This document shows positions 33,877 to 64,000 of a stretch of DNA of 64,000 nucleotides, piece by piece. The stretch is from Cliona cf. orientalis (lineage: Eukaryota > Porifera > Demospongiae > Clionaida > Clionaidae): assembly GCA_963930775.1 (NCBI GenBank), contig OZ005692.1, forward strand, positions 1,226,135 to 1,290,134. Reading direction: 5' to 3'. The notes beneath the pieces were generated by a model, which was given only the letters and a program-made list of their open reading frames with translations, searched no databases and was not told the DNA's origin. The first letter of the stretch is position 1, and the number at the start of each line of letters is the position of its first letter. Both the position numbers and the translations under genes were made by a program.

Positions 33877-35634
33877 ATGATGTTAGTGCCGATCATCATG
33901 ATCATACTGGCCACTTTCTTGAAAGGTAGGCTTGTGTATAATACTATACAATTCTTTAACCCCCTCCATCAAAAGATTATTTCTTAATTATTAATTATTA
34001 CATTATTATGCTCCTCAGTGGCATTTTGCAACTCATTATCATGTGCTTGCAGTATCAGCTCAGTGTAGTCGCGGTGAAATTAGGCTGGTAAATGGTTCTG
34101 CACCTCATGAAGGAACGGTAGAGGTATGTGTTAATACCAATTGGGCCACAATCTGCAACGACAACGTTAACTGGGGCACTGAAGAGGCCATGGTTGTTTG
34201 CAGGCAACTCGGATACACACCAGAAGGTACGTAATTATATATATAATAATTGCAATGCATGCAGTGCCATGGTTTCTATCTTGTGACTGATAGCTAATAG
34301 CTACAGTAGTAGAATGTTACTAATGATCTTGTACTATTATTAGTCTAATAAATTAAATAATAGGTGCTCTGGCTCTGAGAGCTGGTTATTTTGGGCCTGG
34401 AAATGGATCTGTCGCCATGACACTGCATAACATCAGATGTAAACCAGATAGAGACATGACAATACTAGAATGTTGCAAAGAGGAAGTGTCAGAGTCTGAC
34501 CACTGTGTTCAACGTAGTTCTAGGCGTGGTCCTGTTGCCGTTAGATGCAGTGGAGATAATCAGATCATCAGAAATGTTAGTATTTCTCTCATCACTGACG
34601 AAACTCCAACTTCCGGTAGTACTCTAAATCTAACACACTACTATAGTGTCTTGGTCATTTGGCAGACACACCATCATCACCATGACGATAGGTTAAGAAC
34701 CACTGCGGCCATGCTACGTTCATTTGAGGTTCGATGCTTTAACAATATGCACAGCATAAAGATATTATTATCACCGAGTAATACAACCTTTATGTCACAA
34801 ATTGGAGGTCTCCTTCGAAGTAGCTACCACTACACATGCTGTGTCTCAGCCATATATGACTCATACACTGCTCAAGGAGTCTGTAATAGAGCAGAAACCC
34901 CTCATGAATCACAACTACTCACAACAGTTACGGAGATTTTCAGTACCGAAGCAGAAACACTGCATTTGAACACCACAAAAGAAAGTATTACTCAAGGAGA
35001 AATTACAAAAATGTTAACATCTAAAGATCTCAGTGCTCGAGCTAAAACTGTAGACTTGTTCACATCAACAGAAATTGTCAGTGCTTGTATTGGAACATCG
35101 AAATTCATGAATGTGGTGGTTCTTGTAACACTTGGAGCTGTTGCTGCCATTTTTGCAATCTTGTCCGCCTTATTTTGTGTGGCACTGATCATTTATCAAA
35201 GATCAAGGAAGGGTACACACAATGTCACTATGACACCTATGAGGTAAGGCACACTAGCTATTAATAGATCAAATTAATAGTTCTGAGATCTTAGACTTAA
35301 TATCGCACTTTACACACAATATCACTATAGATCGATACAGCTTGCTGATAGATGCTCCATGGATGTATCTACTCATGGCAATATAAGTTATGACACTATA
35401 ACAGTGCCCTCTAATTATTACTCTAAGGGCAATTCAGATTCAAGTAAAGCTGCCATTAGCACCTGTGATATTGATACTGCTGACTCAACAAATCAAACGG
35501 AAAAGCTTAACGATGCAGAAGAGCTTCAGCTTTATGAAATTCCCAATCCTGATTTCGGAGCAATATCCAATGGTAGAGATGCAGAGGAAAGCCACATATA
35601 TACTATTAAAGATCCTATACTACTGTATTATTGA
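33877..35634 (+). CDS. R16: divergent SRCR-FN3 receptor with its own tail type
   Basis: Exons 33877-33925, 34053-34226, 34364-35243, 35331-35634 give 468 aa, with the same phases (1,1,2) as the other receptors. Signal peptide MMLVPIIMIILATFLK; SRCR (CSRGEIRLVNGS, ATICNDNVNWGTEEAMVVC, RQLGYTPEG, then a weak second half HNIRCKPDRDMTILECC). FN3-like domain with an insert (VLVIWQTHHHHHDD, RSFEVRCFN, HYTCCVSAIYDS), a long Ser/Thr linker, TM about 323-351, basic stop. The tail is unrelated at the C-terminus: ISYDTITV (a strict I-x-Y-x-x-I ITIM), QLYEIPN and HIYTIKD. It lacks the Y-x-x-L-x-H end shared by the rest. It sits 380 bp upstream of K1. Intact. Confidence 0.85.
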
Positions 35635-36014
35635 AGACACACTTAGTTGCCATATAGTTACACAATATTTATTATTATGGCTCATAGTGAGTATCATAAT
35701 TCACAACTAGCATTTACATTATCTCTACTTTCAGTTTCATATAATCATGATCTATCTGTCTATAATATTATGCAGATATTTTATGCTAATGTCTATGAGC
35801 TACATAGCTAAGCTTTCATCGGAACATTCGATGATTTTGTGAGAACTAAAATTTAAATCTCTGCCAGTCATACCAAGTTACCAAAACAACACTCCTCTTC
35901 TCAATCTACTTGAATTGTAAGTATTAGCTAACTTAGTAAGTTTGTATTCACGAAGCATGATGAAGTCAGAAGATCTCAAAAAGTGGGTGGTCTAGTTGAA
36001 GTGTGTCGCTATTA
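35635..36014 (+). promoter_or_regulatory. R16 3' flank and K1 leader
   Basis: Contains a kinase-type leader (aaatctctgccagtc, acaacactcctcttctc, gaattgtaagta) shared with K3-K5. The gtaagta may start a 5' UTR intron. Confidence 0.45.
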
Positions 36015-38303
36015 ATGGCTGAGGTACCAAAATATGAATTCAAGAGTGTACAACTTTTCAAGGATCAATCACTTGGAGTTGGGTCTTACGGAGCTGTCTG
36101 TAAAGCAAAATGTGATGACCTCCTCTGTGCTGCTAAAATCATCCACCCTACTCTATTCGATCCGACTGCACTACAGCAAGTTGCCCCTCAAAGAGAGCAC
36201 AGACTGCCCATTAGACGCTTTGAGCAGGAGTGTGAGTTCATGAGTGCCATAAGACATCCCAACATCGTCCAGTACCTGGGCATGTTCAGAGACACTGAGA
36301 CAGTGACACGCTTGCCCGTACTCCTAATGGAGCTGATGGATGACAGCTTGACCCACTTCCTTGAAATCTCCACACAGCCAATTCCCTACCACATCCAGGT
36401 CAATATTTGTCATGATGTTACTCTAGCTCTATCGTTTCTTCACTCCAACAACATCGTCCACAGGGATCTCTCCAGCAACAATGTGTTGCTGATCGGTAAT
36501 GTGAGAGCAAAAGTGACCGATTTTGGAATGGCAAGGCTGGATGACATTAATCCTCAAGTAACTCGCTTTACCAACACCATGTGTCCCGGCACTGATGTCT
36601 ACATGCCTCCAGAAGCTGTTCAAGACAAACCAGTGTACACAGAGAAGATCGACTGCTTCTCATTTGGTGTCATTATAGTCCAGATATTGACACGAAAGTT
36701 TCCAAAACCTGGAGATCGATTGCAGGAAGTAGAATTGAACCACCCAGGAATAAGAGCTAGAACTGTGTTAGTACGTGTACCAGAAGTTGAGCGTCGACAA
36801 AACCATATCAGTGAAATTCCTCCAAACAGCTCTCTCCTATCAATCGCACTCGACTGTCTGAAGGATAAGGACAGTGAACGTCCTTCAGCTCATCAGCTTT
36901 GTGAGAGAGTAGCAGATTTAAAAGGAATGCCCAAATACTTAGAGAGTATTAGAACTGTACGAGATAAGGACAAATTGATTCAATCACAAGCCATTGACAC
37001 TGAAGAAAATAAGTGTAAAATATCTGCAAAAGAAGAGGAGATTCAGCAACTGAGACGTCAATTGCAGGAAGAAAAAGATCAAGCCAACAGACAACTGGAG
37101 GAGACAGTGAGATGACTACATCAAGAAAGAGATCATGCCAATAGACAGTTCGAGAAGAGACGGAGAAGTCTACAGCAAGAAAATGATCGTGCTTTAGGGG
37201 AAAGTAGAAGACAACTACAAGAGAAAGAGAGACAACTTGGACGTGTAAACCAGCAGCTAGAAGATAGTGAACAAGTGGTAGCTCAGTTTGAGAGACGAAT
37301 CGCTGAACTGGAAGAGCTAGTTAGCCAGAGAGAACAGCAAATAATAAAAGCCAGTAGCAGAGGAAAAGAGTTGACCAGCTTCAAACTGACGTGGAGGGAG
37401 GGAAAGAGGGCTCCATGTGAAATGTATAGACTGTGTGATAGTGTCGTTAATGGCAATACAGTATATATAATGAATGGGAACCTTTATTCTTATGACATCA
37501 CAAGTAACACCTGGTCTCGTATACTAGACCGTATTCATGAGAATTCATCAATAACCGTCATCAATGGCTGGCTGACTACTATAGGGGGATATTCCTTCCC
37601 TAATTATGTCAATGAGTTGTTAAGCCTCACTGGGGAAGGCAGTAGCAGGAAATGGACTAAGAAATTCCCACCCATGCCAACAAAGAGATGTCGGGTAGCT
37701 TCACTGTGCACCGGAACCACACTAATTGTGGTCGGAGGAGAGAGAGAAGGTGATGTGCTCCCAATAGTTGAAGTGATGAATACCGAGACTCACCAGTGGT
37801 CCACTGCTGCTGCTCTACCTGAACCAATGTACTATGTATCAGCAACAGTATGTGGAGATCAATTCTGTATATTAGGAGGACTCGACAAAAATCGCACTCA
37901 TACTAAGTCAGTGTACACTTGTTCAGTGAGTTCCCTCCTCCTGTCTTGTGTTTCAAGTTCATTGGAAGGAATATTTAAGAGAATATCGATATCTATGAAA
38001 GCCGTAAACTTATGGAGACAAATTGCTGATTTACCGGTTACACATTCCACTTGTCAGTCTTTTCATGGTCGACTGCTGTCTATTGGTGGGAAGATGGATT
38101 CAGGAGTACCTACCACAGCTGTTTACATGTATAACCCAACTATTAACTCCTGGGAAATCTTCAGTCACATGATAGCTGGTCGATATCGTTGCTTTACAGC
38201 TGTCCTCCCTGACAACCAACTAGTGATAGTGGGAGGTACACGGAAGACTGATCATGATGACGCTGGTACTGATATAGTAGAAATAGCCAGCATCATATCC
38301 TGA
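36015..38303 (+). CDS. K1: TKL-like kinase, coiled coil, Kelch; one in-frame UGA
   Basis: Intronless coding stretch of 762 codons after ATG 36015 (MAEVPKYEF). The kinase domain spans about residues 15-320: glycine loop GVGSYGAV (21-28), Lys 41 in CAAKIIH, IVHRDLSSNNVLL (HRD 149-151), DFG at 169-171, and MPPEA in place of APE. Next comes a Glu/Gln/Arg-rich coiled coil (about 320-450), then Kelch repeats with IGGY, VVGG, LGG, IGG and VGG turns (about 465-762). One TGA at 37113-37115 lies in the coiled coil. It is followed by CTA, the context of efficient stop readthrough, and the frame is open on both sides. So either a kinase-only product plus a readthrough fusion, or a single nonsense mutation. 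It forms a tandem pair with R16. Confidence 0.82.
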
Positions 38304-38801
38304 AATTGTATACATTGAAATTAACACTCAATTTTCTGACATACTAGCTATGTATTCAGACATAACTATTCTATAGCTAGCCAAAGCCAGCTATTAATTG
38401 TGAGTATTAGAGCAATCAGATTTACATGTAATGTCAGTGTCACTGAATATGTGTTGGTTGTAGCCATTGATTGAAGGTTAAACATGTTTATGTGGGCTAA
38501 TTATCGTGGCATAATAATTTATGTATCTTAAACTAATTACATTTTACTTGTCTATAATTATTGTAAACACATGCACACAGAGGTGTGCGATGTATAATAT
38601 GCCACTTCATAAGAAAACATTTCTGTTTACATAAGAAATTCTTATAATATTATAAGCGAGATGATTGAGTGAACAATGGTAGAGGTCTCTATGCATATCT
38701 ATAATATACTATTACATACAACTGCAAAAGTTTACATGTACATGATATTATTATATAACTATGACCCTATGATGGTTTCAGTACAATTCTAGTATGTAAT
38801 A
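38304..38801. other. K1-K2 convergent spacer
   Basis: AT-rich DNA between the 3' ends of two converging genes. It carries a stretch similar to the R15 3' flank (ttgaaggttaaacatgtttatg...). No gene seen. Confidence 0.4.
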
Positions 38802-41800
38802 CTAAAAGCATGCAATGTCAACACGCTTTTCATTGATCTCCCCGCCAGTCACAAGCATCCTACCATCAGGAAGAATCACGCAAACACAAGCTGCTCTTTC
38901 CGTGGGCAACTCCGCAGCGACCTTAACCCACTCCCTCTTGGTCGGTTGATAGAGGTGAATCACTTTAGTCCCCACACCGCCAACTGCCAACAATGCTCCT
39001 TGGTACGCTAACACTGTTGAACCTTCCAGCGGAGCCCTAGGCAGTGTCTGCCATGGCGATGGTGTGGGCAGGGCGCTTACTGATTTCGCAGCTGCTGCCT
39101 GTGTGGCGGTAGCTTGAGAGATGAGGTCGTCTAGACACACCTGAATCGCGGCGCCTCTCCTCATGACACCCCCACAGAGTACAAAAAGATTACCCACCAC
39201 TGCGGATGTTATTTTGTACAGTGGCTGAGTAATTGGGGGTGCCGTGATCCACTTTCCTTGAAATGTAGAGACGTCCAAGATTTCTACTCTCGATACATCA
39301 GACATCCTGTCTCCGAAATCTCCCACCACTACCAACCACTTGTCGTCATGACTGACTACTCTTGGTGACCGGCGCGCCACCTGCATTGATGGATAGGGGT
39401 GTACCCATCTCCCATATTGCTCGTTCCACACTCCAAGCTTATTGGTCCTTCGATCAGTTTGAGGATTAACACCGCCAACTAATGTTAACTGGTTATTTAC
39501 GACAGCCATGCCAAAGTGACTATAGTCATAGGGAGGTAGGGTTGACCACTGCTCGACGGACGGATTAAAGACCATCACGAGTCCCTTCTGTCCAGTCCAT
39601 GGTGATTCTGCTCCTCCTGCATACACCTTCCCCCTTACCACGACAGCTTGAGGGTAGCTTCCCATGAGGTATGGCAAATCATTCGATCTACTCCACTTCA
39701 GCTTGAGAGGGGCTTCCAGATCTTTCAATGACGTCTGTACACAATGGGAGAATAAAAATAGTGTAGCTTCCAGCCAGCTGTAACTAATATTAAATTATAT
39801 GTACATACCTGATTAAATGTTTTGCTCTGTTGCAATGCTGTTGCAAGCTGAACATCTTTTTCTTTAAGTAACTCCTACCATGCAGTATAAATGAAAGGTA
39901 ATTCTTATCTCCCACCCTACCACCCCTCCCCCTCTCTCTCACAAAGATAAACACACCAATGCACACATACTTCCCCGTCGGAGAAAATAATAGTTGTTTT
40001 CACTGAGTAATCACAAGTTGTACTCTATTTGGGTGTTGTATACTTTCACTATGAAGTGATGATAACTTGCATTATGTGCACTATATACACGCATGTATTA
40101 TGTACTTGAAGCTTTTGAAGCTCTTCTTGAATTCTGTCAATATGTGCGTTTTTTTGTAGAAGCTCGGTTCTCCTTCGAATTAGCATCCTTTCCTTCTGCT
40201 TCCCCACTTCTTTCAGATTCGCATACTCAGCCTAACCATAGATTCGCAGGTACAGTGGAGCATGTGATATTAATTGCATACCATATTAAAGGGGCATACC
40301 TGGAGTAGGCTTAGCTCCCGACGAGTTTCAGCCAACTGACTGTCGTGCTTTTGGACTTCTGTGTCCTTCAATTGAATATTTGTCAATAGCTCAGACTCCT
40401 TTAATTGTAATAGCCTATCCTTTTCTTTCTCTTTCTCTTCCAAGAAAGTTTTCTCAGCCTGTGCATAAATTTAAGACATAGTACTATATGAAATAAATTA
40501 AATTAATGGCCCCAATCAACATACCCAATCCATATTAGGTCAAGCATGAACTAATAATTTAGGGTAATATAAAAAATGTGCTATCAGATTCATGCCTGAA
40601 GTTTTTCCACTCGTTGTTGAAAATCATTCAACAGTAGAGTTTTCTGTTGGAGTTCAGAATTCTTTTGTTTCAGTTGATCATTCATCGTTTGGATATCCCT
40701 CTCCTTCTCTTGCAGTTCAATATCTTTCTGCTGAAGCTTGGAGGCATTCTCTCGTTTTAAGTTCTCCAATTTTGTTTCTGCTGCTGTCTGGACTTCAATC
40801 ATCTCTGCCTACAATTACCACAATGATAGTAATAAAGCACATAATAATATTCAATTTGATACTGTATTAGTACTAAAATTATTTAACCTGAATATATTGT
40901 AGCTGTTTCTGAACATCATTCAACTGCTCTTCTCTTTCGTGGAGTTCCAATTCATGTCTTTGCTACATGAGTACAAAATTAGAGTGTATAATAATAATAT
41001 GGATACTATACTAAAGATGTATAGCTATAGTAGCTGAATAAACCTGTGTTTGTTCTATCTGTGCTTGTAGCCTCCGAATCTCTCTCTCTTTCTCCCTCAA
41101 CACTCCTTCCCTTGTTCTGAGACATTTTAACGTGACTACTTGCTTCACGGCATCAATTTTGGTAACAGCTCCATATGGACCTTCAATGGTTTTCCTTATA
41201 TCCTCCAGAGTTGCTGTAACTTCATCACAGGTTGGACGTTCCGAGGGTATGTTATCAAGACACTCTTGGATCATTTTGACTAGAGGATAGCCTGCACTGT
41301 CAGACAGTTTTCTTTCTAATCGATTGAAGTATTCCCCTCTACGTTCTACCTCTGAGCGGCCAATAAGATTTCGAGGATAGACAGTGTGTGGATCGGGGTA
41401 ATTTGGCTCTAGTAGATCTCCTGGAAAGACCTACAGCATGCATGTAATACTATCAGTTAGGTGGTAATTCACCTTCATATACATAGCTAGTAGCTATAAT
41501 CACACTTAGCTTAATTACCTGAGTTAATGTAAAGAGGGCAAGATGACCAAATGAGAAGACATCAAGGCTGGGGCCATAGCGAGATGATGATGAAAGAGCC
41601 TCGGGAGGCATGTAGACCAGTGTCCCTGGTAACCGAGATAGCGTCTTAGCTAGCTGGCCGGGCTGTAGGTTGACAATGCGCGAGTTACCAAAATCAGTGA
41701 CCTTTGCCACCAGGGACGAAGTCAGCAGAACATTCTTCGCCGTCAGGTCCCTATGGATGATTTGAGGAGTGTGTTTGTGCAGGTAGAGAAGGCCCCTGGA

Positions 41801-42476
41801 CACGTCCTCCAGAATGGATAACTTCAACACCAGAGGGATGTTGGGGACTGTTTCAAGTAGATCATCTAAACTCCCATCAAGTCTCTCCATCAGCAGCACA
41901 GGGAGTTGGCAGTCGGGGAAGAAGCATAGACCCAGGAACAGCGTGATGTTGGGGTGACGAAGGTCAGACATGAGCTGGCACTCCTGTACGTACCTATCAA
42001 CCACATTCTCCATCCCAGTATTGTCTGTGTCCAGGAGAACCTCATGAATCCTCTTTCCAGCACACACTAGTCCATTCACAACCACCTATACCATGTGAAA
42101 TTTAATAGCTACACGTCACGGTTGCCATAGCTAAGATTCTAAGAAATTTATTCTGATTAGTGTCAATTATTATGATGCGGAGGTTATAATTTGGATATGG
42201 CACGATAATATTAAATATCATGACCGGCAAATCGTAGTTTTGGCCCTCTTTTCCTTCCCCTGTACCACAACAAAGAAATAGCTAAGTATTTAATATAGGC
42301 TGGGGAAGAACACATGAAGTAGTATAGCTAGCTAGCTGGGTCCATTTTGATGTTACCTCTTCCACTGATCCATAGGAGCCAGTGCCCAGTTGTTTTCCTG
42401 TGGCTCTGCCTTCTACCACGAAGCGAGAAAGATTAGGATGATGCTGTATTTGATGTCTCCCTTCTTGATTAGCCAT
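38802..42476 (-). CDS. K2: multi-exon TKL-like kinase, coiled coil, Kelch
   Basis: Nine exons on the minus strand: 42476-42357, 42085-41519, 41430-41044, 40962-40888, 40808-40596, 40458-40300, 40231-40106, 39874-39809, 39734-38802. Every exon is a multiple of three and every intron is phase 0; total 881 aa. Start MANQEGRHQ. The kinase spans about 25-300: GTGSYGSV, VCAGKRIHEV, IIHRDLTAKNVLL, TDFGNSR, MPPEAL. Five short symmetric exons encode a long coiled coil (about 330-560). The last exon carries Kelch repeats (AGGAESPW, LVGGVNPQ, LCGGVMRR, AVGGVGTK, VTGGEINE). Intron 5 starts with GC (CTTCAG|GCATGA) in this model; a weak GT in CGA|GTGGAA is the alternative. It is head-to-head with R17, 374 bp apart. 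Looks intact. Confidence 0.82.
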
Positions 42477-42850
42477 CACGTGTAGATTTGGTGAGAACAC
42501 AGTTCAAGTGTAATTTATGTATTACTGCAAGTTTTCAGTATGTCAGCACAAACAGTGAAAGTTATAATTATACTGAAAGAGAAATGTATCATAGCTTATG
42601 GTTCATTGTTTACTCATGATAGTCAATAAAATCATTACAATGTCGTATTATAGTAAATAATATAATAATTATGCACAGTATTGGGGGTGTGGCTCGCAAG
42701 ATCATACTAAAACTTGACCCGCATAATAATTATTGGTTCAAGCGTGTGTTTAAGCATGCATAGTGCGCATGCGCACGATGTCTATCGCTCGTCCGGGCAA
42801 TAGTTAACCCAAATAGAGATCGTAGACGAGGCTATAAATTATAATCCAAA
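42477..42850. promoter_or_regulatory. Bidirectional promoter K2 / R17 with NRF1-like palindrome
   Basis: Separates the two ATGs by 374 bp. TGCGCATGCGCA at 42764-42775 matches the consensus of the animal factor NRF1 and lies 87 bp before the R17 ATG. Copies of this block stand before R18, R19, an orphan exon and R20. Confidence 0.6.
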
Positions 42851-45068
42851 ATGATAGGGAGTTTTGGAGTCATAATAGTCGTTTTCGTTAAAGGTAATCT
42901 TCTCTTGGATAGCTGTAATTATAATCATGGTACAGTATTAGCTATAATTTTGTATTCCTATTTCCTACAGCTGCAGTATCTGACCAGTGTAGCCATGGTG
43001 ATGTTCGGCTCGTGAATGGCACTACGTTACAAGAAGGAAGACTGGAGATCTGTTACAACTCCAACTGGGGCACAGTTTGCCAAGATGGATGGGGGAATGC
43101 CGACTCCTTTGTAGTCTGCAGGCAACTAGGATACCAAGAAAATGGTACACAGTAAAAACAAGTGGATCATATTATTAAAACTAATGTGGATTGCTTCAGT
43201 TGCACACACTATACCTACAACAAACTGGCATGCTTGCATGTACCACTTACTTGTCCCATGTGTATTCTCGAATATAACTGGCATACTACCACGTACTTAT
43301 CTTAGAATGTTCTCGAATTAATGTGGACTAAGTACTGTATACACTCTATGTGCATAATTACATTAATAAGGCTATTAGGCACAAATGCTGCATGCAATCA
43401 TACATCATGAGAGTATGTAGTAGAATAATTATGCCAGTTTTGATAGCTACTCATAAATTGGCAAGTTTGACGTACTGAAAGTATCAGATTCTGTAATTAA
43501 CTGGATTATGAGAACTATGATGCGAATGTGCCAGTACAACTGAGGCAACCCATATTAGATTACTGCGATCCACTTGTTTTTGCTGTGTAATCACTGTTAG
43601 ACGTATAGCTACCTGTATATTATAGCCAAAAATTATGATAATAAATAATATTACTATTATTATTGTTATGCAATTTCTGCATGGATTAAGGTTTATATGA
43701 AAACTACTCATTAGATTTTATTAACATAGCTGGTCGTGGCATATACGGAGCATATTTTGGACAAGGAACAGGACCTGTAGTATTCGGCAATGTTCGCTGC
43801 AACAGGATGGAACGAGAACTGCTTGAATGTGTTCACAATATGTCCCATAATTGTGGGCACAGTAAAGATATTAGTGTACGGTGTATCCTGAGAGAAGATC
43901 AAAGAGTAAAAAACATGACTGTAAGTGCAAATGTCATCGATACAAACACACCCAGTACTGTGCATACCGCCCTCATCTCTTGGGTCCTGCACAATACCAC
44001 TATGGACGAACCCACTTCATTCGACATTGAGTGCTCTAATGAAAGTCACAGCATAACAATGTTAGTGAGTGACCAAGATTTTACTACACGTCTAATGGGT
44101 CTCCTTCCACTTACTTCCTACAACTGCTGTGTGTCAGTTGTGTATGAGCTCTATCGAGCTGAAGGAGTGTGTGATGATGAAATAGAAACACCGGAATTGT
44201 CTACTACTTCAGCTAATTCTGATCATGATTCAGATGCCAAACTAGTTGGTGGAGTGCTTGGATTCATTGTCGTGATTCTTTCAGTCTTGTTGATAATATT
44301 TGGAGCAGCACTGGTGTTTTTGCTACTACCAAGATGGAAAGGGAATGGAATACCAGCCAGGTAAAGTGTTTACTCCAAAAACAGATAAAAAGATCTCCAT
44401 GTAAGTATCTTGATGTTTTCAAAAGTGCGTGCATACATTAAAAAACTGGACGACAGTGGAACTAGTCCGTATGCTTTGGGAATGAGGTTTGTTTACTCTA
44501 GGATCTTAGTGGTGTACATTGCAGCTTATACATACATTGTGATTGATGATCGTCGCACGACTTGTCACATCACATGCATATCATCATAATAATACTATCA
44601 CTTAGTCTATTATTACTATAATTATTGTTACTGCTATATTTATACAGATCATCAGAGTTAATTAATCATGGCAAAAACAATAATATGGAAATGCCCGTTC
44701 ATAGCAACCAAAGTTATGTGCAGGCACCAGCTCACACCGGTGCATCAAATTCAACAACGAAAGCTAGAGGAGATTGTCGTTCTCAAGCTGTGACAGTAAC
44801 TGTTAGTCAACTCAAAGATGGAGCGGCAGATCCAGACTACAGCAGCTTTGGCCCAGATTACGAAAGTATCGACTCCAGTGGGCCGAAACAGCCACAGAGG
44901 AGAGGGGAAGTGCCGGCTGGACGACTCTCTCAGCGCTATGAGTATTCAGAAGCACATCTGGCTACTCTGAATGAAGAAGGGTTAGCTGGTGCTAGTTATG
45001 AGGTTCCTTTGAATTTGAGGCAGAATGTGACGACAGAAAGTGAGGACTATTCACACCTGAAGCATTGA
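42851..45068 (+). CDS. R17: delta-type SRCR-FN3 receptor
   Basis: Exons 42851-42893, 42971-43144, 43730-44360, 44648-45068 give 422 aa. Signal peptide MIGSFGVIIVVFVK; SRCR (CSHGDVRLVNGTT, GTVCQDGWGNADSFVVC, RQLGYQENG; FGNVRCNRMERELLEC, NCGH). FN3 (HTALISWVLHNTT, PTSFDIECSN, SYNCCVSVVYELYRAEGVC), linker, TM about 246-271, PRWKGNG. The tail has QSYVQAP, DYSSFGPDYESID, QRYEYSEAHLA, SYEVPLNL and C-terminal EDYSHLKH. The second intron is unusually long (585 bp). Intact. Confidence 0.88.
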
Positions 45069-45550: not shown

Positions 45551-45579
45551 CCGCCAGCCCCTCCCATTTGGAGGGCCTG

Positions 45580-45775
45580 GACCGGTATACGGTCGACGTC
45601 CGCAAGAATCTGATCACGTGATCTGGCTTATCGCTAGCTATAGCATCGCCGCCATTATGCGAGAGCTAAATTTGAAGAAGCTAAAATCTCTACCATCGTA
45701 CCGAGTCTCGGAGTCTCAGTTGTCGAAGCAAATCCCATTTTCTCTTAGAATTGTAAGTTTAAAAAAAAATTTGTC
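45580..45775 (+). promoter_or_regulatory. Orphan kinase-type promoter
   Basis: Carries gatcacgtgatctgg, catcgccgccattatgcgag, aaatttgaagaagctaaa and agaattgtaagttt, the blocks that precede K3, K4 and K5. No kinase follows; the next gene is R18. I read it as the remnant of a deleted kinase. Confidence 0.6.
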
Positions 45776-46050: not shown

Positions 46051-48062
46051 ATGATAGGTAGTTTGGGAGTCATAATAGTCGTTTTCGTTAAAGGTAATCT
46101 TCTCTGATTTAATGGATAACTGCAACTATAATCATGATACAGTGTTAGGCCACTCCAAATAGATTTCCTGTTTCCCGTCCACCGCCCGCATCCTTTTCTG
46201 GCATGTCACAAAATTTTCCATTATTAGTACTTTTGTATGTATGCAATATCCGCATTTACTTTTGTACACGTAGTATTCTTGCCTCAAGTGAGTGATAATT
46301 AATTAGTTTAAATGTTTCCTGTAGGCCTTGCTACTATGTAAATAATGGGATTTACCGCCCGCCCGCATACTACATTAGTTGTTTTCAGGACGGGAAACAG
46401 GAAATTTATTTGGAGTGGCCTTAGCTATAATTTCGTAATCCTATTTCCTACAGCTGCAGTATCTGACCAGTGTAGCCATGGCGATGTTCGGCTCGTGAAT
46501 GGCACTACGTTACAAGAAGGAAGACTGGAGATCTGTTACAACTCCAACTGGGGCACAGTTTGCCAAGATGGATGGGGGAATGCCGACTCCTTTGTAGTCT
46601 GCAGGCAACTAGGATACCAAGAAAATGGTATAAATCGGTTTTAGACGTATAGCCACCTGTATCCAAAAATTATGATAATAGTATTATATTGTTATGCAAT
46701 TTCTGCATGGATTGAGCTTTGTATGAAAATAGATTTTATTAACATAGCTGGTCGTGGCATATACGGAGCATATTTTGGACAAGGAACAGGGCCTGTAGTG
46801 TTTGGCAATGTTCGCTGCAACGGAATGGAATCAGAATTGCTTGATTGTGATGGCAATATGTCTCCCAATTGTGGCCACAATAAAGATGTTAGTGTACGGT
46901 GTATCCTGAGAGAAGATCAAAGAGTAAAAAACATGACTGTAAGTGCAAATGTCATCGATACAAACACACCCAGTACTGTGCATACCGCCCTTATCTCTTG
47001 GGTCCTGCGCAATACCACTATGGATGAACCCACTTCATTCGACATTGAATGCTCTAATATTAATGAAAGGCACAGCATAACAATGTCAGTGAGTGGCCAA
47101 GATTCTACAATGCATTTAATGGGTCTCCTTCCCCTTACTTCCTATAACTGCTGTGTGTCAGCTGTGTATGAGCTATATCGAGCTGAAGGAGTGTGTGATG
47201 ATATAGAAACACCGGAATTATTTATCCACACAAGAGCTTCAGAGACCAAAATCGTTGGTGGAGTGCTTGGATTTATTATCATTGTTCTTTTGATCTTGTT
47301 GGTGATATCTGGAGCAGCACTGGTGTTTTTGTTATTACCAAGATGGAAAGGAAATGGAATACCAGCCAGGTATTAATAATTGTGTGACAGATCTTCCATG
47401 TACTAGGTAGCTATATTTGATGTTTTCAAAAGACTAGTATGCATGTGTATACATTAGAAAACAGATCCTGGAACTAGTCCATATGCTTTGGGAATGAGGC
47501 TTGTTTACACTATGATCTTAGTGATGTACGTATACATTGCAGCTTATACATACATTGCAATTGATGATCATTGCACGATTTGTCACGTCACGTGCATAAC
47601 ACCATAATAATAACATTATTATTAGCACTTAGTCTATTACTATAATTATTGTTACTGTCAGAGTCAAGCAGAAACAATACAATGGAAATGCCCATTCTTA
47701 GCAACCAAAGTTATGTGCAGGCACCAGCTCACATCGATGCATCTAATTCAATAACGAAAGCTAGAGGAGATTTTCGTTCTCAAGCTGTGACAGTAACTGT
47801 TAGCCAACTCGAAGATGGAGTGGCGGGTTCCGACTACAGCAGCTTTGGCCCAGATTACGAAAGCATCGACTCCAGCCGGCCGAAACAGCCACAGAGGAGA
47901 GGAGAAGTACCAGCTGGACAACTCTCTCAGCGGTATGAGTATTCAGAGGCACATCTGGCTACTCTGAATGAAGAAGGGTTAGGTGTTAGTTATGAGGTTC
48001 CTTTGAATTTGAGGCAGAACATGACGACAGAAAGTGAGGACTATTCACACCTGAAGCATTGA
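46051..48062 (+). CDS. R18: delta-type SRCR-FN3 receptor, shifted tail acceptor
   Basis: Exons 46051-46093, 46454-46627, 46748-47369, 47669-48062 give 410 aa. Signal peptide MIGSLGVIIVVFVK. The SRCR first half is identical in protein to R17; second half FGNVRCNGMESELLDC, NCGHNK. FN3 (LISWVLRNTT, PTSFDIECSN, SYNCCVSAVYELYRAEGVC); TM about 238-265. Before the tail the segment containing the usual acceptor (acag|atcatcagag) is gone. A new acceptor in cagagtcaag restores phase 2, so the tail starts SRNNTMEMP. Tail motifs are QSYVQAP, DYSSFGPDYESID, QRYEYSEAHLA, SYEVPLNL and EDYSHLKH. Intron 1 hosts a 273-bp MITE. Pairs with K3 downstream. Confidence 0.85.
46148..46420. mobile_element. 273-bp Tourist/Harbinger-like MITE in R18 intron 1
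   Basis: Long inverted ends (ggccactccaaatagatttc and complement, roughly 33 bp), flanked by TTA on both sides (46145-46147, 46421-46423). R17 intron 1 has the single-TTA empty site (acagtattagctata). A GGCC start with TTA duplication is typical of PIF/Harbinger-related MITEs. Confidence 0.8.
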
Positions 48063-52346: not shown

Positions 52347-52350
52347 TTAA

Positions 52351-53441: not shown

Positions 53442-55178
53442 ATGATAGGGAGTTTGGGAATCATAATAGTCGTTTTCGTTAAAGGTAATCTTCTCTGATT
53501 TAATGGATGGCTGCAATTATAATCATGATGCAGTTTTATAATTTCGTATTCCTATTTTCTACAGCTGCAGTATCTGACCAGTGTAGCCATGGCGATGTTC
53601 GGCTCGTGAATGGTACTACGTTACAAGAGGGAAGACTGGAGATCTGCTATAACTCCAACTGGGGCACAGTTTGCCAAGATAGATGGGGGAATGAAGACTC
53701 CTTTGTAGTATGCAGGCAACTAGGATATGCAGAAAATGGTAGGCAATTTTGTAGAGTATTTAGCTAATAATAATAATATTATGTAGCTATGTAGAGCTCT
53801 AAACGCGATATCTGCGTGAAAAATAATGCTTCTTAAATTTCGTTATTATAATAATTATTATAGCTGGTCGCAACATAAATAGAGCATATTTTGGACAAGG
53901 AACAGTACCTGTAGTATGGAGCAGAGTTGGATGTGGTGGAATGGAATCAAAATTATTTGAGTGCTCTCATGAAACACCATCTGCTAATTGTGAGCGCAAT
54001 AGGCTCGTTATTGAGTGTACGCTGTATTCTGAGAGATGATCAAAGAGTAAAAAACATGACTGTAAGTGCAAATGTCATCGATACCAATACACCCAGTACT
54101 GTGCATACCGCCCTCATCTCTTGGATGCTGTACGATACCACTGTGGATGAACCCACTTCATTCGACATTGAGTGCTCTAATATTAATGAAAGGCACAGCA
54201 TAACAATGTCAGTGAGTGGCCAAGATTTCACAACGCATTTAATGGGTCTCCTTCCACTTACTTCCTACAACTGCTGTGTGTCAGCTGTGTATGAGTTCTA
54301 TCGAGCTGAAGGAATGTGTGATGATATAGAAACACCGGAATTGTTTATCCATACAAGAGCTTCAGAGACCAAAATCGTTGGTGGAGTGCTTGGATTTATT
54401 ATCATTGTTCTTTTGATCTTGTTGATAATATTTGGAGCAGCACTGGTGTTTTTGCTACTACCAAAATGGAAAAGGAATGGAATAACAGCTAGGTAACTAA
54501 AAGTTTACTCTGTATAGACAGTTTTCCATATAGGAGTCCTGATATTTTCAAAAGTGCGTGCATACATTAGAAAACTGGAACTAGTCCGTATGCTTTGGGA
54601 ATGAGGTTTGTTTACACTAGGATCTTAGTGGTGTACATTGCAGCTTATACATACATTGCAATTGATGATCGTTGCACGACTTGTCACATCACATGCATAA
54701 CACCATAATAATACAATCACTTAGTCTATTACTATAGCAATTATTATTACTGTACAGATCATCAGAGTCAACTAATCATGGCAGAAACAATACTATGGAA
54801 ATGCCCGTTCATAGCAACCGAAGTTATGTGCAGGCACCAGCTCACATCGATGCATCTAATTCAACAACGAAAGCTAGAGGAGATTGTCGTTCTCAAGCTA
54901 TGACAGTAACTGTTAGCCAACTCGAAGATGGAGTGGCGGGTCCAGACTACAGCAGCTTTGGCCCAGATTACGAAAGTATCGACTCCAGTGGGCCGAAACA
55001 GCCACAGAGGAGAGGAGAAGTGCCGGCTGGACGACTCTCTCAGCGCTATGAGTATTCAGAAGCACATCTGGCTACTCTGAATGAAGAAGGGTTAGATGGT
55101 GCTAGGTATGAGGTTCCTTTGAATTTGAGGCAGAACGTGACGATAGAAAGTGAGGACTATTCACACCTGAAACACTGA
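53442..55178 (+). pseudogene. R19: delta-type SRCR-FN3 receptor with a frameshift
   Basis: Exons 53442-53484, 53565-53738, 53864-54492, 54758-55178. Signal peptide MIGSLGIIIVVFVK; SRCR (CSHGDVRLVNGTT, GTVCQDRWGNEDSFVVC, then VVWSRVGCGGMESKLFEC). Four extra bases relative to R20 near 54005-54020 shift the frame at the end of the SRCR, leading to a stop at ERxx (54033-54035). FN3 (LISWMLYDTT, PTSFDIECSN, SYNCCVSAVYEFYRAEGMC), TM and tail (RSYVQAP, DYSSFGPDYESID, QRYEYSEAHLA, RYEVPLNL, EDYSHLKH) are open in the other frame. Likely a recent null copy. Confidence 0.8.
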
Positions 55179-55810: not shown

Positions 55811-58014
55811 ATGGCTGAGATACCAAAATATCAGTTCAAGAATGTTCAACTTCTCAAGGATCAATCCCTTGGCATTGGATCTTATGGAGCTGTCTGTAAA
55901 GCGAAATGTGATGACCTCCTCTGTGCTGCTAAAATTATTCACCCTACTCTATTCGATCCAACTGCACTACAGCAAGTTGCCCCTCAAAGAGAGCACAGAC
56001 TGCCCATTAGACGCTTTGAGCAGGAGTGTGAGTTCATGAGTGCCATAAGACACCCCAACATCGTCCAGTACCTGGGCATGTTCAGAGACACCGACACACG
56101 CTTGCCTGTGCTCCTAATGGAGCTGATGGATGACAGCTTGACACACTTCCTGGAAAGTTCCACACAGCCAATTCCCTACCACATCCAAGTCAATATATGC
56201 CACGATATAACTCTGGCACTATCATTTCTCCACTCAAACAAAATCATCCACAGAGATCTCTCCAGCAATAATGTTCTCTTGCATGGTAACATCTTAGCTA
56301 AAGTGACTGACTTTGGAATGGCAAGGCTGGATGACATTAACCCTCAAGCAACTCGCTTCACCAGCACCATGTGTCCTGGTACTGACGTCTACATGCCTCC
56401 AGATACTGTTCAAGATAAACCAGTGTACACAGAGAAGATTGACTGCTTCTCATTTGGTGTCATCATAGTCCAGATATTGACACGACAGTTTCCCAAACCA
56501 GGAGATCGACTGGAGAGAGTGGAATTAAATCATCCAGGGATACGCACAAGATCAGTGCTGGTAGAAGTACCAGAAGTTGAGCGTCGACAAAACCACATCA
56601 GTCAAATTGATCCAAATCACTCTCTCTTACCAGTTGCGCTCAATTGTCTAAAGGATAAGGACAGTGAACGTCCTTCAGCTCATCAGCTTTGTGAGAGAGT
56701 AGCTGATCTGAAAGGAATGCCCAAATACAGAGACAGTGCTAGAGCTGTTGAGGATAGAGATGATATTATTCAATTACAAGCAATTTGTATAAAAGAAAAG
56801 GATTGTATAATATCATCAAAAGAAGAGGAGATTCAGCAACTAAGACAGCAACTTCATGAGAAAGATCAACAAATGGAGGAGAGGGAGAGACAGCTAAGGG
56901 AAACTAGAAGACGATTTTTACATGAGAAAGAGAGACAACTTGGATGTGTAAACCAACTAGAAGCAAGTGAACATTGTCAAGTGGTAGCTCAGTTTGAGAG
57001 ACGAATCGCTGAACTGGAACCGCAAAAAGAGCAGCAAATGATAAAAGCCAGCAGCAGTGAAAAAGATCTGACCAGCTTCATATTGACATGGAGAGAGGGA
57101 AAGAGGGCTCCATGTACAATGTCATGTAAAATGGATAGATGGTGTGATGCTGTAGTGGATGGGAATACAGTGTATATATCATGGATGCAGGATCAAAGAA
57201 GATATATTCCTATATTGTCACCAGTGTCAGCTGGTCTCAATTACCAGACTGTATTTACAAGCATTGTTCATTAGTAATAATCGATGGCCTACTCACTACT
57301 GTAGGAGGATATCTCACCCCTTTATATGCCAACGAGTTGTTCAGCCTCACTGGAGAAGGCAGTGATAGGAAATGGACTCAGAAATTCCCACCCATGCCAA
57401 CCGAGAGGATGTCTACAGCTGCAGTTTGCAGTGGAAGTATGTAAATAGTGGTTGGAGGGATTGGAATGGGTGGCCAAGTATTATCGACTGTGAAAGTGAT
57501 GAATACTGAGCATCATCAGTGGTCCACTGCTGCCAGTCTACCTGAGCCATTGTACTACACATCTTTAGCAGTCTGTGGGGAGAAAATTTATATGCTGGGT
57601 GGAAGGGACAAGCATTTTTTAGATACTACATCAGTGTATACTTGTTCAGTGAGTGCTCTTCTCCAATCTTGTGTTTGGAGTCCACTAGAAGCAACTTTTA
57701 AGAGAGCATCTTTGGTAGATGAATCCAGTGACTGTGTATGGGGACAAATTGCTGATTTACCAGTTAAAGAGTCTACTTGCGAGTCCTTTCATGGTCAACT
57801 GCTGGCTATTGGTGGGAGGCTGGACTCATTGGGAGCCACCACGGCTGTCTACATGTACCGTTCATCCACCAACTCCTGGGAAATAGTGAGTCACATGAAA
57901 ACTGGTCGAATCAGGTCCTTTGCAGCTTTCCTCCCTGACAATGAACTGATTGTAGTGGCTGGTGGTATTTTCAGTGATACGGTGGAAATTGCCAGTATTA
58001 AGCTTAAGGCATAG
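55811..58014 (+). pseudogene. K4: kinase-Kelch copy with one frameshift and one stop
   Basis: ATG 55811 (MAEIPKYQF). Open for 487 codons: kinase (GIGSYGAV, CAAKIIH, IIHRDLSSNNVLL, DFGMARL; MPPDT where others have MPPEA, so the conserved Glu is Asp), coiled coil and the start of Kelch. Two extra bases near 57175 shift the frame and it ends at 57272-57274. The Kelch region continues in the proper frame from 57181, is stopped by TAA at 57442-57444 (TTA in K3), and resumes 57448-58014 ending SIKLKA. Total: one shift and one nonsense codon. The kinase and coiled coil are still encoded. Confidence 0.8.
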
Positions 58015-59145: not shown

Positions 59146-59151
59146 CACGTG

Positions 59152-59409: not shown

Positions 59410-59547
59410 ACGTGTAGGCTTGGTGAGAGCACAGTTGTAATATTTCATGTGCTACTAAGTAACTTTTTCAGTAGCTATATCAGCACAAACAGTGAGTTAT
59501 ATTATATATAACAGTGATTTACTATATATGACATTGGTACAGTAATG

Positions 59548-59670
59548 ATTTTATTGACTATCATGAGTTACTGTACCGTAAACAATGAACCGTAAGCTAT
59601 GATACATTTTCTCTTTCAGTGTAGCTAATAGCTTATGGTTCATTGTTTACTCATGATAGTCAATAAAAAA
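59548..59670. repeat. Local inverted duplication of promoter sequence
   Basis: attttattgactatcatgag ... aacaatgaaccgtaagctat is followed by its reverse complement (atagcttatggttcattgtt ... ). The right arm is the normal delta 5' block. Confidence 0.75.
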
Positions 59671-59860
59671 AATTAATGTCGTATTATGGTAAATAATATA
59701 ATAGTTATGCATAGTATTGGGGGTGTAGCTCGCAAGATCATACTAAAACTTGAAGTATTGGTTCAAGCATAGGTTTAAGCATGCACAGTGCGCATGCGCA
59801 CGATGTCTATCGTTCGTCCGGGCAATAATTAGAGATCGTAGACGAGGCTGTTACTCCAAA

Positions 59861-61645
59861 ATGATAGGGAGTTTGGGAGTCATAATAGTCGTTTTCGTTA
59901 AAGGTAATCTTCTCTGATTTAATGCATGGCTGCAATTATAATCATGATGCAGTGTACGTAATAATTATTATAATAATATCGTATTCCTATTTCCTACAGC
60001 TGCAGTATCTGACCAGTGTAGCCATGGCGATATTCGGCTCGTGAATGGTACTACGTTACAAGAGGGAAGACTGGAGATCTGCTACAACTCCAGCTGGGGC
60101 ACAGTTTGCCAAGAAAAATGGGGGGATAAAGACTCAGTTGTAGTCTGCAGGCAACTTGGATATGAGGATAATGGTAATATTATAAGAATTTTATAGTGCT
60201 ATTAAATTAGATCAGCGTTATAAATAGCTGCAGCTATATATAGAGCTCTAAACGTTATTTCTGTATGGATTGTGCTTTGCACGAGAAAATTAATGCTTCT
60301 TAAATTTCGTTAACATATAATATTATGTAGCTGGTCGCAGCATAGGCAGAGCATATTTTGGACAAGGAACAGTACCTGTAGTATGGAGTGACGTTGAATG
60401 TGACAGAACGGAATCAAAATTGTTTGAGTGCCCTTACGATACACCATCAGATTCTTCTAATTGTGGGCGCAATAGGGTTGTTAGTGTGCGGTGTATCCTG
60501 AGAGAAGATCAAAGAGTAAAAAACATGACTGTAAGTGCAAACGTCATCGATACCAATACACCCAGTACTGTGCATACCACCCTCATCTCTTGGATGCTGT
60601 ACAATACCACTATGGACAAACCCACTTCATTCGACATTGAGTGCTCTAATGAAAGGCATAGCATAACAATGTTAGTGAGTGACCAAGATTTTACTACACA
60701 TCTAGTGGGTCTCCTTCCTCTTACTTCCTACAACTGCTGTGTGTCAGCTGTGTATGAGCTCTATCGAGCTGAAGGAGTGTGTGATGATATAGAAACACCG
60801 AAATTGTTTTTCCACACAAGAGCTTCAGAGACCAAAATCGTTGGTGGAGTGCTTGGATTTATTATCATTGTTCTTTTGATCTTGTTGATAATATTTGGAG
60901 CAGCACTGGTGTTTTTGCTACTACCAAAATGGAAAAGGAATGGAATAACAGCTAGGTAACTAAAAGTTTACTCTGTATATATAGACAGTTTTCCATATAG
61001 GAATCCTGATGTTTTCAAAAGTGCGTGCATACATTAGAAAACTGGAACTAGTCCGTATGCTTTGGGAATGAGGTTTGTTTACTCAAGGATCTTAGTGGTG
61101 TACATTGCAGCTTATACATACATTGCAATTGATGATCGTTGCACGACTTATCACATCACATGTATAACACCATAATAATACAATCACTTAGTCTATTACT
61201 ATAGCAATTATTATTACTGTACAGATCATCAGAGTCAACTAATCATGGCAGAAACAATACTATGGAAATGCCCGTTCATAGCAACCGAAGTTACGTGCAG
61301 ACACCAGTTCACACCGGTGCATCTAATTCAACAACGAAAGCTAGAGGAGATTGTCGTTCTCAAGCTGTGACAGAAACTGTTAGCCAACTCAAAGATGGAG
61401 CGGCAGATCCAGACTACAGCAGCTTTGGCCCAGATTACGAAAGTATCGACTCCAGTGGGTCGAAACAGCCACAGAGGAGAGGAGAAGTGCTGGCTAGACA
61501 ACTCTCTCAGCGCTATGAGTATTCAGAGGCACATCTGGCTACTCTGAATGAAGAAGGGTTAGCTGGTGCTAGTTATGAGGTTCCTTTGAATTTGAAGCAG
61601 AACGTGACGACAGAAAGTGAGGACTATTCACACCTGAAGCACTGA
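59861..61645 (+). CDS. R20: delta-type SRCR-FN3 receptor
   Basis: Exons 59861-59903, 60000-60173, 60331-60955, 61225-61645 give 420 aa. Signal peptide MIGSLGVIIVVFVK; SRCR (CSHGDIRLVNGTT, GTVCQEKWGDKDSVVVC, RQLGYEDNG; VVWSDVECDRTESKLFEC, NCGRNR, VRC). FN3 (LISWMLYNTT, PTSFDIECSN, SYNCCVSAVYELYRAEGVC), linker, TM (GGVLGFIIIVLLILLIIFG), PKWKRNG. The tail has RSYVQTP, DYSSFGPDYESID, QRYEYSEAHLA, SYEVPLNL and C-terminal EDYSHLKH. Intact; pairs with K5, 615 bp downstream. Confidence 0.88.
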
Positions 61646-62260
61646 TTTCACTGTTACAGTAGCCACCAAAATTTTGGATTCAGTTGATTCGTGTGCTGTA
61701 GTTTTCTAAACGTCTGCCTTGTCTTCTATAGATGTGTAGCAACATCGTAGTGATAATCATGACATTGTAGATATTGCAGTTTAAAATTAATTTTATTATA
61801 CCGGTTAATATGGCTGTTATTCATGCACACAATGTGATGGCATAATAATAATAATAATAATTAATATACTTTTTCCCATTTATCTATCTATTTTTGTCCT
61901 AAGCATGTACTCACCACTCTTACAGTGCCCCTCCATCAGCCCCTCCCATTTCTACAACTAGTCAAGGGGGAGGGGCTGGTCGCGGAGGTTAACCGCAAGA
62001 ATGTCCGATCACATGATCTGGCTTTACAGCTTGTTCTGCATCGCAGCCATTAATTTTTGCGAGAGCTAAATTTGAAGAAGCTAAATCTCCACCATCGTAC
62101 CGAGTTTCAGTTAGCGAAACAACGCCCCTCTTCTCTTTCCAACTAGATTTGAATTGTAAGTTAAGAAGACTTATCAGAGATGATGTATGCATCAAGGTCA
62201 AAAAGTGGGTGTGTCTGGTTTATCATGTAATTTTTCTCTTTTACTAGTCCGTCGTTACTA
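61646..62260 (+). promoter_or_regulatory. R20 3' flank and K5 promoter with a likely 5' UTR intron
   Basis: Promoter words: gggaggggctggtcgcggag, gatcacatgatctgg, gcatcgcagccatt, tttgcgagagctaaattt. Donor gaatt|gtaagtt at 62156 and acceptor tttttctcttttactag ending at 62247 mark a probable intron just before the ATG. Confidence 0.6.
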
Positions 62261-64000
62261 ATGGCTGAGATACCAAAATATCAATTCAAGAAGGTGCAAC
62301 TTCTCAAGGATCAATCCCTTGGCATTGGATCTTATGGAGCTGTCTGTAAAGCAAAATGTGATGACCTCCGCTGTGCTGCTAAAATCATCCACCCTACCCT
62401 ATTCGATCCGAATGCACTACAGCAAGTTGCCCCTCAAAGAGAGCACAGACTGCCCATTAGACGCTTTGAGCAGGAGTGTGAGTTCATGAGTGCCATAAGA
62501 CACCCCAACATCGTCCAGTACCTGGGCATGTTCAGAGACACCGACACACGCTTGCCCGTGCTCCTAATGGAGCTGATGGACGACAGCTTGACCCACTTCC
62601 TGGAAAGCTCTACACAGCCAATTCCCTACCATATCCAAATCAATATCTGCCACGATGTCACTCTAGCGCTATCATTTCTCCATTCCAACAAAATCGTCCA
62701 CAGAGATCTCTCCAGCAACAACGTTCTCTTGCGTGGAAATATCCTAGCCAAAGTGACTGACTTTGGAATGGCAAGGCTGGGTGACATTAATCCTCAAGCA
62801 ACTCGTCTCACCAGCACCATGTGTCCCGGCACTGATGTCTACATGCCTCCAGAAGCTGTTCAAGATAAACCAGTGTACACAGAAAAGATCGACTGCTTCT
62901 CATGTGGTGTCATAATTGTCCAAATGTTGACACGAGAGTTTCCAAAACCAGGAGATCGACTGCAGGAGATAGAATTGAGCCATCCAGGAATAAGAGCTGG
63001 AACTGTGTTAGTACGTATACCAGAAGTTGAGCGTCGACAAAACCACATTGGCCAAGTTGATCCAAACCACTCCCTCCTACCAATTGCACTCGATTGTCTA
63101 AAGGATAAAGACGGCGAACGTCCTTCAGCTCATCAGCTTTGTGAGAGAGTAGCTGGTCTGAAAGGAATGCCCACATACAGAGACAGTGCTAGAGCTGTTG
63201 AGGATAGTAGAGATGAGGTCATTCGATCACAAGCAACTAGTATGGAAGAAAAAGATCGTACTATACCATCAAAAGAGGAAGAGATTCAGCAAATGAGACA
63301 GCAACTTCAAGAGAAGGATCGACACCTGAGACAACTACAGCAAGAAAGAGATCAAGCCAATAGACAACTACAGCAAGAAAGTGATCAAAATTTACAAAAA
63401 GAGAGACAACTTCAAGAGAAACAGAGACAACTTGGACGTGTAAACCAGCAGCTAGAAGCCAGTGAACAAGTGGTAGCTCAGTTTGAGAGACGAATCGCTG
63501 AACTGGAACAGCAACTTAGTCAGAGAGAGCAGCAAAAGACAAAAGCCAGCAGCAGAGAAAAGGAGCTGACCAGCTTCAAACTGACATGGAGGGAGGGAAA
63601 GAGGATGCCACATGAAATTCCTAGACTATGTGATGCTGTTGTGGATGGCAATAAAGTGTACATCATGGATGGAGGATTAAAGAAGATACATTCTTATAAT
63701 GTCACCAATGACAGCTGGTCTCAATTACCAGACTGTGTTCTTACTTATTGTCCATTAGCAATAATTGATGGCTTACTCACTACTATAGGAGGATACCACC
63801 CCGATTTATATTACAATGAGCTGTTTAGCCTCACTGGAGAAGGCAGTGGTAGGAGATGGACTAAGATATTCCCACCCATGCCTACCAAGAGGATGTATGC
63901 AGCTGCAGTGTGCAGTAGAAGTATGCTATTAGTGGTTGGAGGGATGAGTGACGAAGTACTATCAACTGTGGAAGTGATGAATATTGAACATCACCAGTGG
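62261..64000 (+). CDS. K5: kinase-Kelch gene, open to the window edge
   Basis: ATG 62261 (MAEIPKYQF); I read 580 codons without a stop to base 64000. Kinase: GIGSYGAV, CAAKIIH, IVHRDLSSNNVLL, DFGMARL, MPPEA; Phe in the DCFSFGV motif of the others is Cys here (DCFSCGV). A long Gln/Arg/Glu coiled coil with repeated RQLQQE units follows, about residues 320-440, then Kelch repeats (YIMDGGLKK, TIGGYHPD, LVVGGMSDE) up to the edge. It is the only single-exon kinase copy here without a visible break, and would be the best candidate for the active member. The C-terminal Kelch repeats lie outside the window. Confidence 0.88.
   Translation, partial: MAEIPKYQFKKVQLLKDQSLGIGSYGAVCKAKCDDLRCAAKIIHPTLFDPNALQQVAPQREHRLPIRRFEQECEFMSAIRHPNIVQYLGMFRDTDTRLPVLLMELMDDSLTHFLESSTQPIPYHIQINICHDVTLALSFLHSNKIVHRDLSSNNVLLRGNILAKVTDFGMARLGDINPQATRLTSTMCPGTDVYMPPEAVQDKPVYTEKIDCFSCGVIIVQMLTREFPKPGDRLQEIELSHPGIRAGTVLVRIPEVERRQNHIGQVDPNHSLLPIALDCLKDKDGERPSAHQLCERVAGLKGMPTYRDSARAVEDSRDEVIRSQATSMEEKDRTIPSKEEEIQQMRQQLQEKDRHLRQLQQERDQANRQLQQESDQNLQKERQLQEKQRQLGRVNQQLEASEQVVAQFERRIAELEQQLSQREQQKTKASSREKELTSFKLTWREGKRMPHEIPRLCDAVVDGNKVYIMDGGLKKIHSYNVTNDSWSQLPDCVLTYCPLAIIDGLLTTIGGYHPDLYYNELFSLTGEGSGRRWTKIFPPMPTKRMYAAAVCSRSMLLVVGGMSDEVLSTVEVMNIEHHQW

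Follow-up and report, generated by a model that had tools for sequence, protein, structure and literature searches.

Receptor-kinase gene pairs at a sponge locus: probable interleaving of two tandemly duplicated families

Introduction

The recurrence of a receptor gene followed on the same strand by a kinase gene raises the question of whether the two have been amplified together because their products act together. The question is posed here by a 64,000-nucleotide stretch of the genome of the sponge Cliona cf. orientalis (hereafter the window; GenBank assembly GCA_963930775.1, contig OZ005692.1), in which genes for receptors with an SRCR domain and a transmembrane (TM) helix, labelled R, are interspersed with genes encoding a kinase, a coiled coil and a Kelch part, labelled K. 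A first, sequence-only reading took the receptor plus the kinase to be the amplified unit, and from this co-amplification it proposed a single pathway, perhaps with the kinase binding the phosphorylated receptor tails. We followed up these proposals across the 216.8 Mb of genome searched, designating the contig that carries the window C4 (the window being C4:1226135-1290134), and asked whether the linkage recurs independently in the genome, whether the partners have one common duplication history and whether both members of each pair are intact. Blocks holding one receptor and one kinase have been duplicated in tandem, the histories of the two partners conflict, and several members are broken. 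From these observations we infer that two lineage-specific tandem families probably abut and interleave at this locus, the kinases riding along in unequal duplications without a dedicated receptor-kinase function.

Results

Layout and block duplication

From 33.9 kb to the window end, the plus strand carries R16, K1, R17, R18, K3, R19, K4, R20 and K5, in this order (Table 1), and the minus strand carries K2, a diverged kinase-Kelch gene, between K1 and R17. A tblastn search with K5 across the window matched K1-K5 only, and found no kinase beside the receptors at 1-33.9 kb. The four same-strand pairs of the sequence-only reading, with the kinase 0.4-1.0 kb downstream of the receptor, are borne out: between the stop of the receptor and the start of the kinase lie 0.38 kb (R16-K1), 1.03 kb (R18-K3), 0.63 kb (R19-K4) and 0.62 kb (R20-K5). 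Its description of the kinases as kinase-coil-Kelch genes agrees with Pfam matches to Pkinase and Kelch, but K1, K3 and K4 have no full-length frame, and the minus-strand K2 has to be added to the layout.

A block of ~6.5-7 kb with one receptor and one kinase has been tandemly amplified: R18-K3, R19-K4 and R20-K5 align across both genes at ~80-90%, and the last three kinases are spaced by 6.7 and 6.5 kb, the last three receptors by ~7.1 and 6.5 kb. Long direct repeats in the window comprise four copies each of the kinase and receptor blocks. R17 and R18 lie ~3.0 kb apart, and K1 and K3 ~13.1 kb apart. Downstream of R17, the sequence-only reading placed an orphan kinase promoter. The ~150 bp stretch found there does resemble the DNA upstream of kinases, this being one of four copies in the genome, of which the others precede K3, K4 and K5, and no kinase follows it; as a promoter, it is only putative. 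Either a kinase has been lost at this point or the stretch predates the kinase.

Duplication histories

Among the receptors R17-R20, 39 informative sites support the grouping (R17,R18)(R19,R20) versus 13 and 3 for the two other arrangements. Among the kinases, 88 sites join K3 with K4 apart from K5, versus 14 and 17, when K1 is the fourth member, and the same grouping is found with three other fourth members. The two quartets are thus opposite where a common duplication history of the partners would have them agree, and, since R19 groups with R20 but K4 with K3, the R19-K4 pair is a mosaic. Synonymous divergence (dS) is 0.10 between R19 and R20 (exon 2) versus 0.33 between K4 and K5 (kinase part); the values for R18-R19 and K3-K4 are 0.165 and 0.18. 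Along K3 and K4, dS is 0.18 in the kinase part, 0.016 in the coil and 0.14 in the Kelch part, and the dip in the coil likely marks a gene-conversion tract adjoining a lesion that the two genes share.

The R16-K1 pair stands apart. At ~1.4, dS between R16 and R20 is far above that between K1 and K5 (0.35 in the kinase part, 0.63 in the Kelch part), so that R16-K1 would be no copy of the unit represented by the other three pairs, unless conversion refreshed K1. The notion of a receptor plus a kinase as the amplified unit therefore describes R18-K3, R19-K4 and R20-K5, and does not extend to R16-K1. The trees suggested an independent origin of K1, and the approximately unbiased (AU) test leaves a single clade of K1, K3, K4 and K5 unrejected (p 0.37; Kelch part alone, p 0.13).

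Genome-wide linkage

Searched with a degenerate version of the kinase motif GTDVYMPPEA, the genome gave 172 exact matches; a reversed control gave 0. K3 and K4 do not carry the exact motif and are hence outside the 172; the presence of a Kelch part among the motif copies was seen for the scored loci, which read mostly as single-frame kinase-coil-Kelch genes. Only three of the 172 are found at most 5 kb from one of 230 receptor or SRCR positions, namely K1, K5 and a relic at C4:6.62 Mb. The 230 positions are a lower bound, drawn from matches that cover only part of the family and leaving aside some in the same SRCR clusters; a number of tail exons are among them, as is the relic's own TM fragment. 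Over 5000 circular shifts, the mean number within 5 kb was 0.88 and the fraction reaching three was 0.106; within 20 kb, three were observed versus a mean of 2.03 (fraction 0.285). This null is rough, nine contigs having been set to 9.5 Mb though at least C2 is longer.

The relic (C4:6619301-6626488; loci L070 and L064) consists of a kinase-Kelch gene that ~0.5 kb of unrelated sequence splits in two; behind it comes a fragment of a TM exon of the R17-R20 type, and directly upstream lie a tail-like frame and an unrelated frame that includes a TM stretch. Considered as a second site of linkage, it was counted as a relic because its kinase is split and its neighbour is only a TM-exon fragment, and without it the count falls to 2 of 172. 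Two of the three linked kinases are thus in the window and the third is a relic, which does not amount to independent recurrence elsewhere in the genome. This distance check had been set beforehand, together with the pathway proposal, as the test to refute it, and within the limits of the search no enrichment was found.

The flanks of individual loci give a similar picture. In two comparisons that detect relatives of the window receptors only, a receptor exon was found in the 1.5-kb flanks of none of 26 outside kinase loci and of all four window loci. Kinase-Kelch homology is present in the 1.4 kb upstream of 8 of these 26 outside loci, and no receptor was found in the 2 kb upstream of a further kinase copy, K6. 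Conversely, a scan of 30 receptor loci with K5 detected a kinase piece at four (R16, R19, R20 and the relic), the R18 locus as scanned stopping short of K3, and scattered receptors on C9, C10 and at C4:1.49 Mb have no kinase in their 1.5-kb flanks. The lack of enrichment within this search, the conflicting histories and the absence of receptor exons at the 26 outside loci all speak against the step from co-amplification to one pathway.

Integrity of the pairs

R16, R17, R18, R20 and K5 appear open, whereas K1, K3, K4 and R19 are broken; R20-K5 is the only one of the four pairs with both members intact. One frameshift, close to where the Kelch part begins, is common to K3 and K4, and both genes have additional lesions. 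First frames shorter than 640 codons occur in three of four kinases here and in 2 of the 27 other loci that were read (Fisher, 0.008). The latter figure becomes 5 of 27 (p 0.04) when L016, L027 and K6, whose C-terminus is shortened, are added, and a wider list of scored kinase loci gives 14-16 of 71 (p 0.03-0.05). The 640-codon cut-off was picked after the data had been seen, and these comparisons constitute modest evidence for an excess of broken kinases at the locus. On the lineages of K1, K3 and K4, the ratio of nonsynonymous to synonymous divergence (dN/dS) is 0.08-0.24 in the kinase part and 0.24-0.40 in the Kelch part, from small counts.

The receptors

The receptors belong to a cluster of at least 34 genes at C4:1.178-1.288 Mb, a count obtained from hand-merged matches (at least 30 by exon 2, four more by tail only), and four of these are paired with a kinase. 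Their gene model comprises four exons, with splice sites and open exons judged by eye, encoding the signal, the first half of the SRCR domain, its second half together with an fn3-like domain and the TM helix, and the tail. Both features expected of the SRCR superfamily are present, that is, an SRCR domain above the Pfam cut-off and a single TM helix with a cytosolic tail. The two SRCR halves of R17 exceed the cut-off, exon 2 of R20 scores 26.6 bits against a cut-off of 26.1, and SRCR is matched at E<=0.05 in 13 of 16 exon-2 proteins; exon 2 of R16, scanned alone, gave no Pfam match. The fn3 domain is matched only weakly, in 10 of these 16 proteins at E<=0.05 and with 1.8e-5 as the best value. 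A structure model of exon 2 has seven strands in this region, in line with the weak matches and no proof of an fn3 fold, its mean predicted local distance difference test score (pLDDT) of 60 being too weak for a fold search; the TM helix spans residues 162-195, where pLDDT is 85-92.

The tails of R17-R20 and one of two tail types among R1-R15 have in common the tyrosine motifs YSxxGPxYExI or close, RYE[FY]SE, YEVPL or close, and [DE]YSHLxH; the second R1-R15 type ends in EDYLQLQH or close, and the R16 tail differs from both. The one tail scanned with Pfam, that of R17, gave no match. R16 excepted, these motifs are alike in kinase-adjacent and kinase-free receptors, which fits tyrosine phosphorylation and SH2 signalling that would need no adjacent kinase. 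CD5/CD6-type SRCR receptors have an SRCR ectodomain, one TM helix and several cytosolic tyrosine motifs. The sponge receptors resemble them in these three respects of architecture, and differ in having one SRCR and one fn3-like domain.

Two further observations concern the receptor genes. At 17064-17390 and 17451-17768 of the window, two different types of tail exon stand in tandem behind one ectodomain, suggesting a choice of tail by alternative splicing. In addition, an exact 12-base palindrome, TGCGCATGCGCA, which we take to resemble an NRF1 site, precedes the starts of R17-R20 by 72-87 bp in all four cases (window positions 42764, 45978, 53370 and 59789), and the window holds nine matches with at most one mismatch versus 0.07 expected. 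None was found within 1 kb of K1, K4 and K5 (best, 4-5 mismatches), and K3 has one with one mismatch at -534. As a candidate for a promoter element shared by receptors and kinases, the palindrome is uninformative either way, since 13 of the 26 outside kinase loci also carry a copy with at most one mismatch within 1 kb.

The kinase-Kelch family

An intact kinase gene is a single open frame of ~730-790 codons with a kinase and a Kelch part, the coiled coil between them being judged by eye. In a PDB sequence search with the kinase domain, one EGFR entry came first, followed by IRAK4 in number, with BRI1, BIK1 and RAF lower, a ranking that by itself suggests an IRAK-like kinase of the TKL group. 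Unlike IRAK4 and the plant kinases BIK1 and BRI1, the sponge proteins have a coil and a Kelch part after the kinase domain, and a Pfam scan covering K1 and the greater part of K5 matched no Death domain. The same scan matched neither SH2 nor PTB domains, which leaves the proposed binding of the kinase to phosphorylated tails without a domain to mediate it in the parts scanned. The G-loop, Lys, HRD, DFG and APE elements are all kept in K1 and K5 and, by simple patterns, in 26 of 31 loci; K3, K4, L024, L028 and L032 miss at least one.

Motif copies are often clustered, for instance on C1, C4, C5, C14, C15, C16 and C19, with example clusters at C14:8.24-8.36 Mb, C5:11.04-11.10 Mb, C16:0.88-0.98 Mb and C1:0.51-0.71 Mb. 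On C8, the richest in SRCR matches among the contigs listed, there are none. Two more kinase copies lie on the other strand at C4:1.307 and 1.321 Mb, at or past the right edge of the receptor cluster. Between intact array copies, dN/dS is ~0.1-0.2 in the kinase part and ~0.6 in the Kelch part, which would suit a recognition module that varies while the output stays the same.

Table 1. Receptor and kinase genes and a kinase-less homologous stretch in the window (window positions).
Feature	Position	Strand	Remarks
R16, SRCR-TM receptor	33877-35634	+	exons open by eye; ~49% nucleotide identity to R17-R20 in exons; tail without C-terminal YSHLxH
K1, kinase-coil-Kelch gene	36015-38303	+	one in-frame stop at 37113-37115, coil part
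K2, diverged kinase-Kelch gene	38802-42085	-	versus K5: 40% in kinase part, 25% in Kelch
R17, SRCR + fn3-like + TM + tyrosine tail	42851-45068	+	exons open by eye; downstream kinase gene absent
Kinase-less stretch homologous to DNA upstream of K3, K4, K5	45600-45746	+	sequence match
R18, receptor	46051-48062	+	exons open by eye; start set by R17 homology
K3, kinase gene	49095-51328	+	first frame 381 aa; coil and Kelch frameshifted beyond it; 2 additional activation-segment residues
R19, receptor	53442-55178	+	frameshift in SRCR half of exon 2
K4, kinase gene	55811-58011	+	first frame 487 aa; one frameshift common to K3, plus a further stop; PPDT replaces PPEA
R20, receptor, four exons, open	59861-61645	+	signal; SRCR first half; SRCR second half + fn3-like + TM; tail
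K5, full-length 737-aa kinase-coil-Kelch frame	62261-64000	+	extends ~0.47 kb beyond the window (read in L009)

Discussion

The interleaving of two tandem families would account for the pairs as follows. One family is the receptor cluster; the other is the genome-wide set of IRAK-like kinase-coil-Kelch genes, with K1, K3, K4 and K5, and the two copies on the opposite strand, at the right edge of the cluster or beyond. Once a kinase had come to lie between receptors, unequal exchange and gene conversion would have copied blocks with one gene of each kind, and the kinases would thus hitch-hike with the amplification of the receptors. Judging by the motifs, the receptor signal would most likely pass through the multi-tyrosine tails, with Src/Syk-type kinases phosphorylating them and SH2 proteins reading the phosphorylated sites. 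The kinase-Kelch proteins would most likely be cytosolic serine/threonine kinases that assemble via the coil, with the faster-changing Kelch propeller recognising something.

Several points weigh against this interleaving account. The linkage count is above its mean, not all SRCR positions are on the list, and the 172 do not include K3 and K4. The breakage comparison used top-scoring loci, a choice biased towards intact copies. The AU test allows that K1, K3, K4 and K5 may have one local ancestor, and order and strand have been preserved through at least two duplications. Finally, the kinase-domain frame is open in all four kinases, and the predominance of silent changes on the K1, K3 and K4 lineages suggests that, over most of their history, the three were functional and that the damage is young.

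A dedicated cassette, in which receptor and adjacent kinase serve one pathway and have been co-amplified because dosage or matching matters, would draw on much of the same evidence: four same-strand pairs with short gaps, the duplication of receptor and kinase as a block, an intact R20 and K5, an IRAK-like kinase domain and mostly silent changes on the kinase lineages. Nonetheless, ~30 of the at least 34 receptors in the cluster are without a nearby kinase-Kelch match, only 3 of 172 kinases lie near listed receptor or SRCR positions, a single pair is intact, the histories conflict and no phosphotyrosine-binding domain was matched, and we deem such a cassette unlikely. A young form of the same idea, with an IRAK-like kinase-Kelch protein as the downstream partner of the adjoining SRCR receptor, R20-K5 working and the other pairs partly decayed, appears to us quite unlikely as well.

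The shortened K1, K3 and K4 might instead be working products, with kinase and coil and an incomplete Kelch part, acting for example as regulators of K5-type proteins. Their kinase frames are open, every first lesion falls after the kinase domain and dN/dS between K3 and K4 is 0.12 in the kinase part. By length, however, three first lesions would fall outside the kinase part by chance with a probability of ~0.2, the Kelch parts still look constrained, as if their loss were recent, and the PPE triplet or its spacing, kept at 29 of 31 loci, is altered in precisely K3 and K4, all of which makes this explanation very improbable. That assembly or base-call errors mimic breakage of intact genes is hardly credible: several lesions do consist of 2-bp changes, but one of the lesions occurs at the same codon in both K3 and K4, and 22-25 of 27 other loci in the same assembly, depending on the cut-off, have long first frames.

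Tandem SRCR arrays are known from a sponge, with 158 of 296 SRCR genes lying in arrays according to one report (PMC10855680). The tandem amplification of SRCR receptors in the window is alike; the main text of that report does not use the words kinase or Kelch, and the present locus differs in interleaving a kinase family with one such array. According to a study of sponge transcriptomes, SRCR is combined with fibronectin III, as in the SRCR and fn3-like receptors described here, and protein kinases are among the domains found in one gene with SRCR (PMC6208332). The latter is a different arrangement, the kinase here being a separate gene with a Kelch part, but one that would lend an SRCR-kinase connection some support. 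Among the sponge genes that respond to microbial molecules, the same source lists one with a Kelch motif and one for a receptor-like serine/threonine kinase, which may or may not belong to the present family. SRCR domain counts for further sponges appear in PMC12465263 and PMC12909245. A limited literature search found nothing on a kinase-Kelch family or on SRCR-kinase gene linkage in sponges.

Read as interleaved families, the locus is another instance of a known event, the hitch-hiking of one tandem family in another. More generally, neighbouring families that duplicate fast can produce convincing yet incidental "cassettes", for which genome-wide linkage, congruent histories and the integrity of both partners provide a simple test. 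The by-product of this analysis, a large kinase-coil-Kelch family whose kinase part is conserved and whose Kelch part changes faster, is more interesting than the pairing that led to it; it possibly constitutes a cytosolic recognition repertoire and merits a study of its own.

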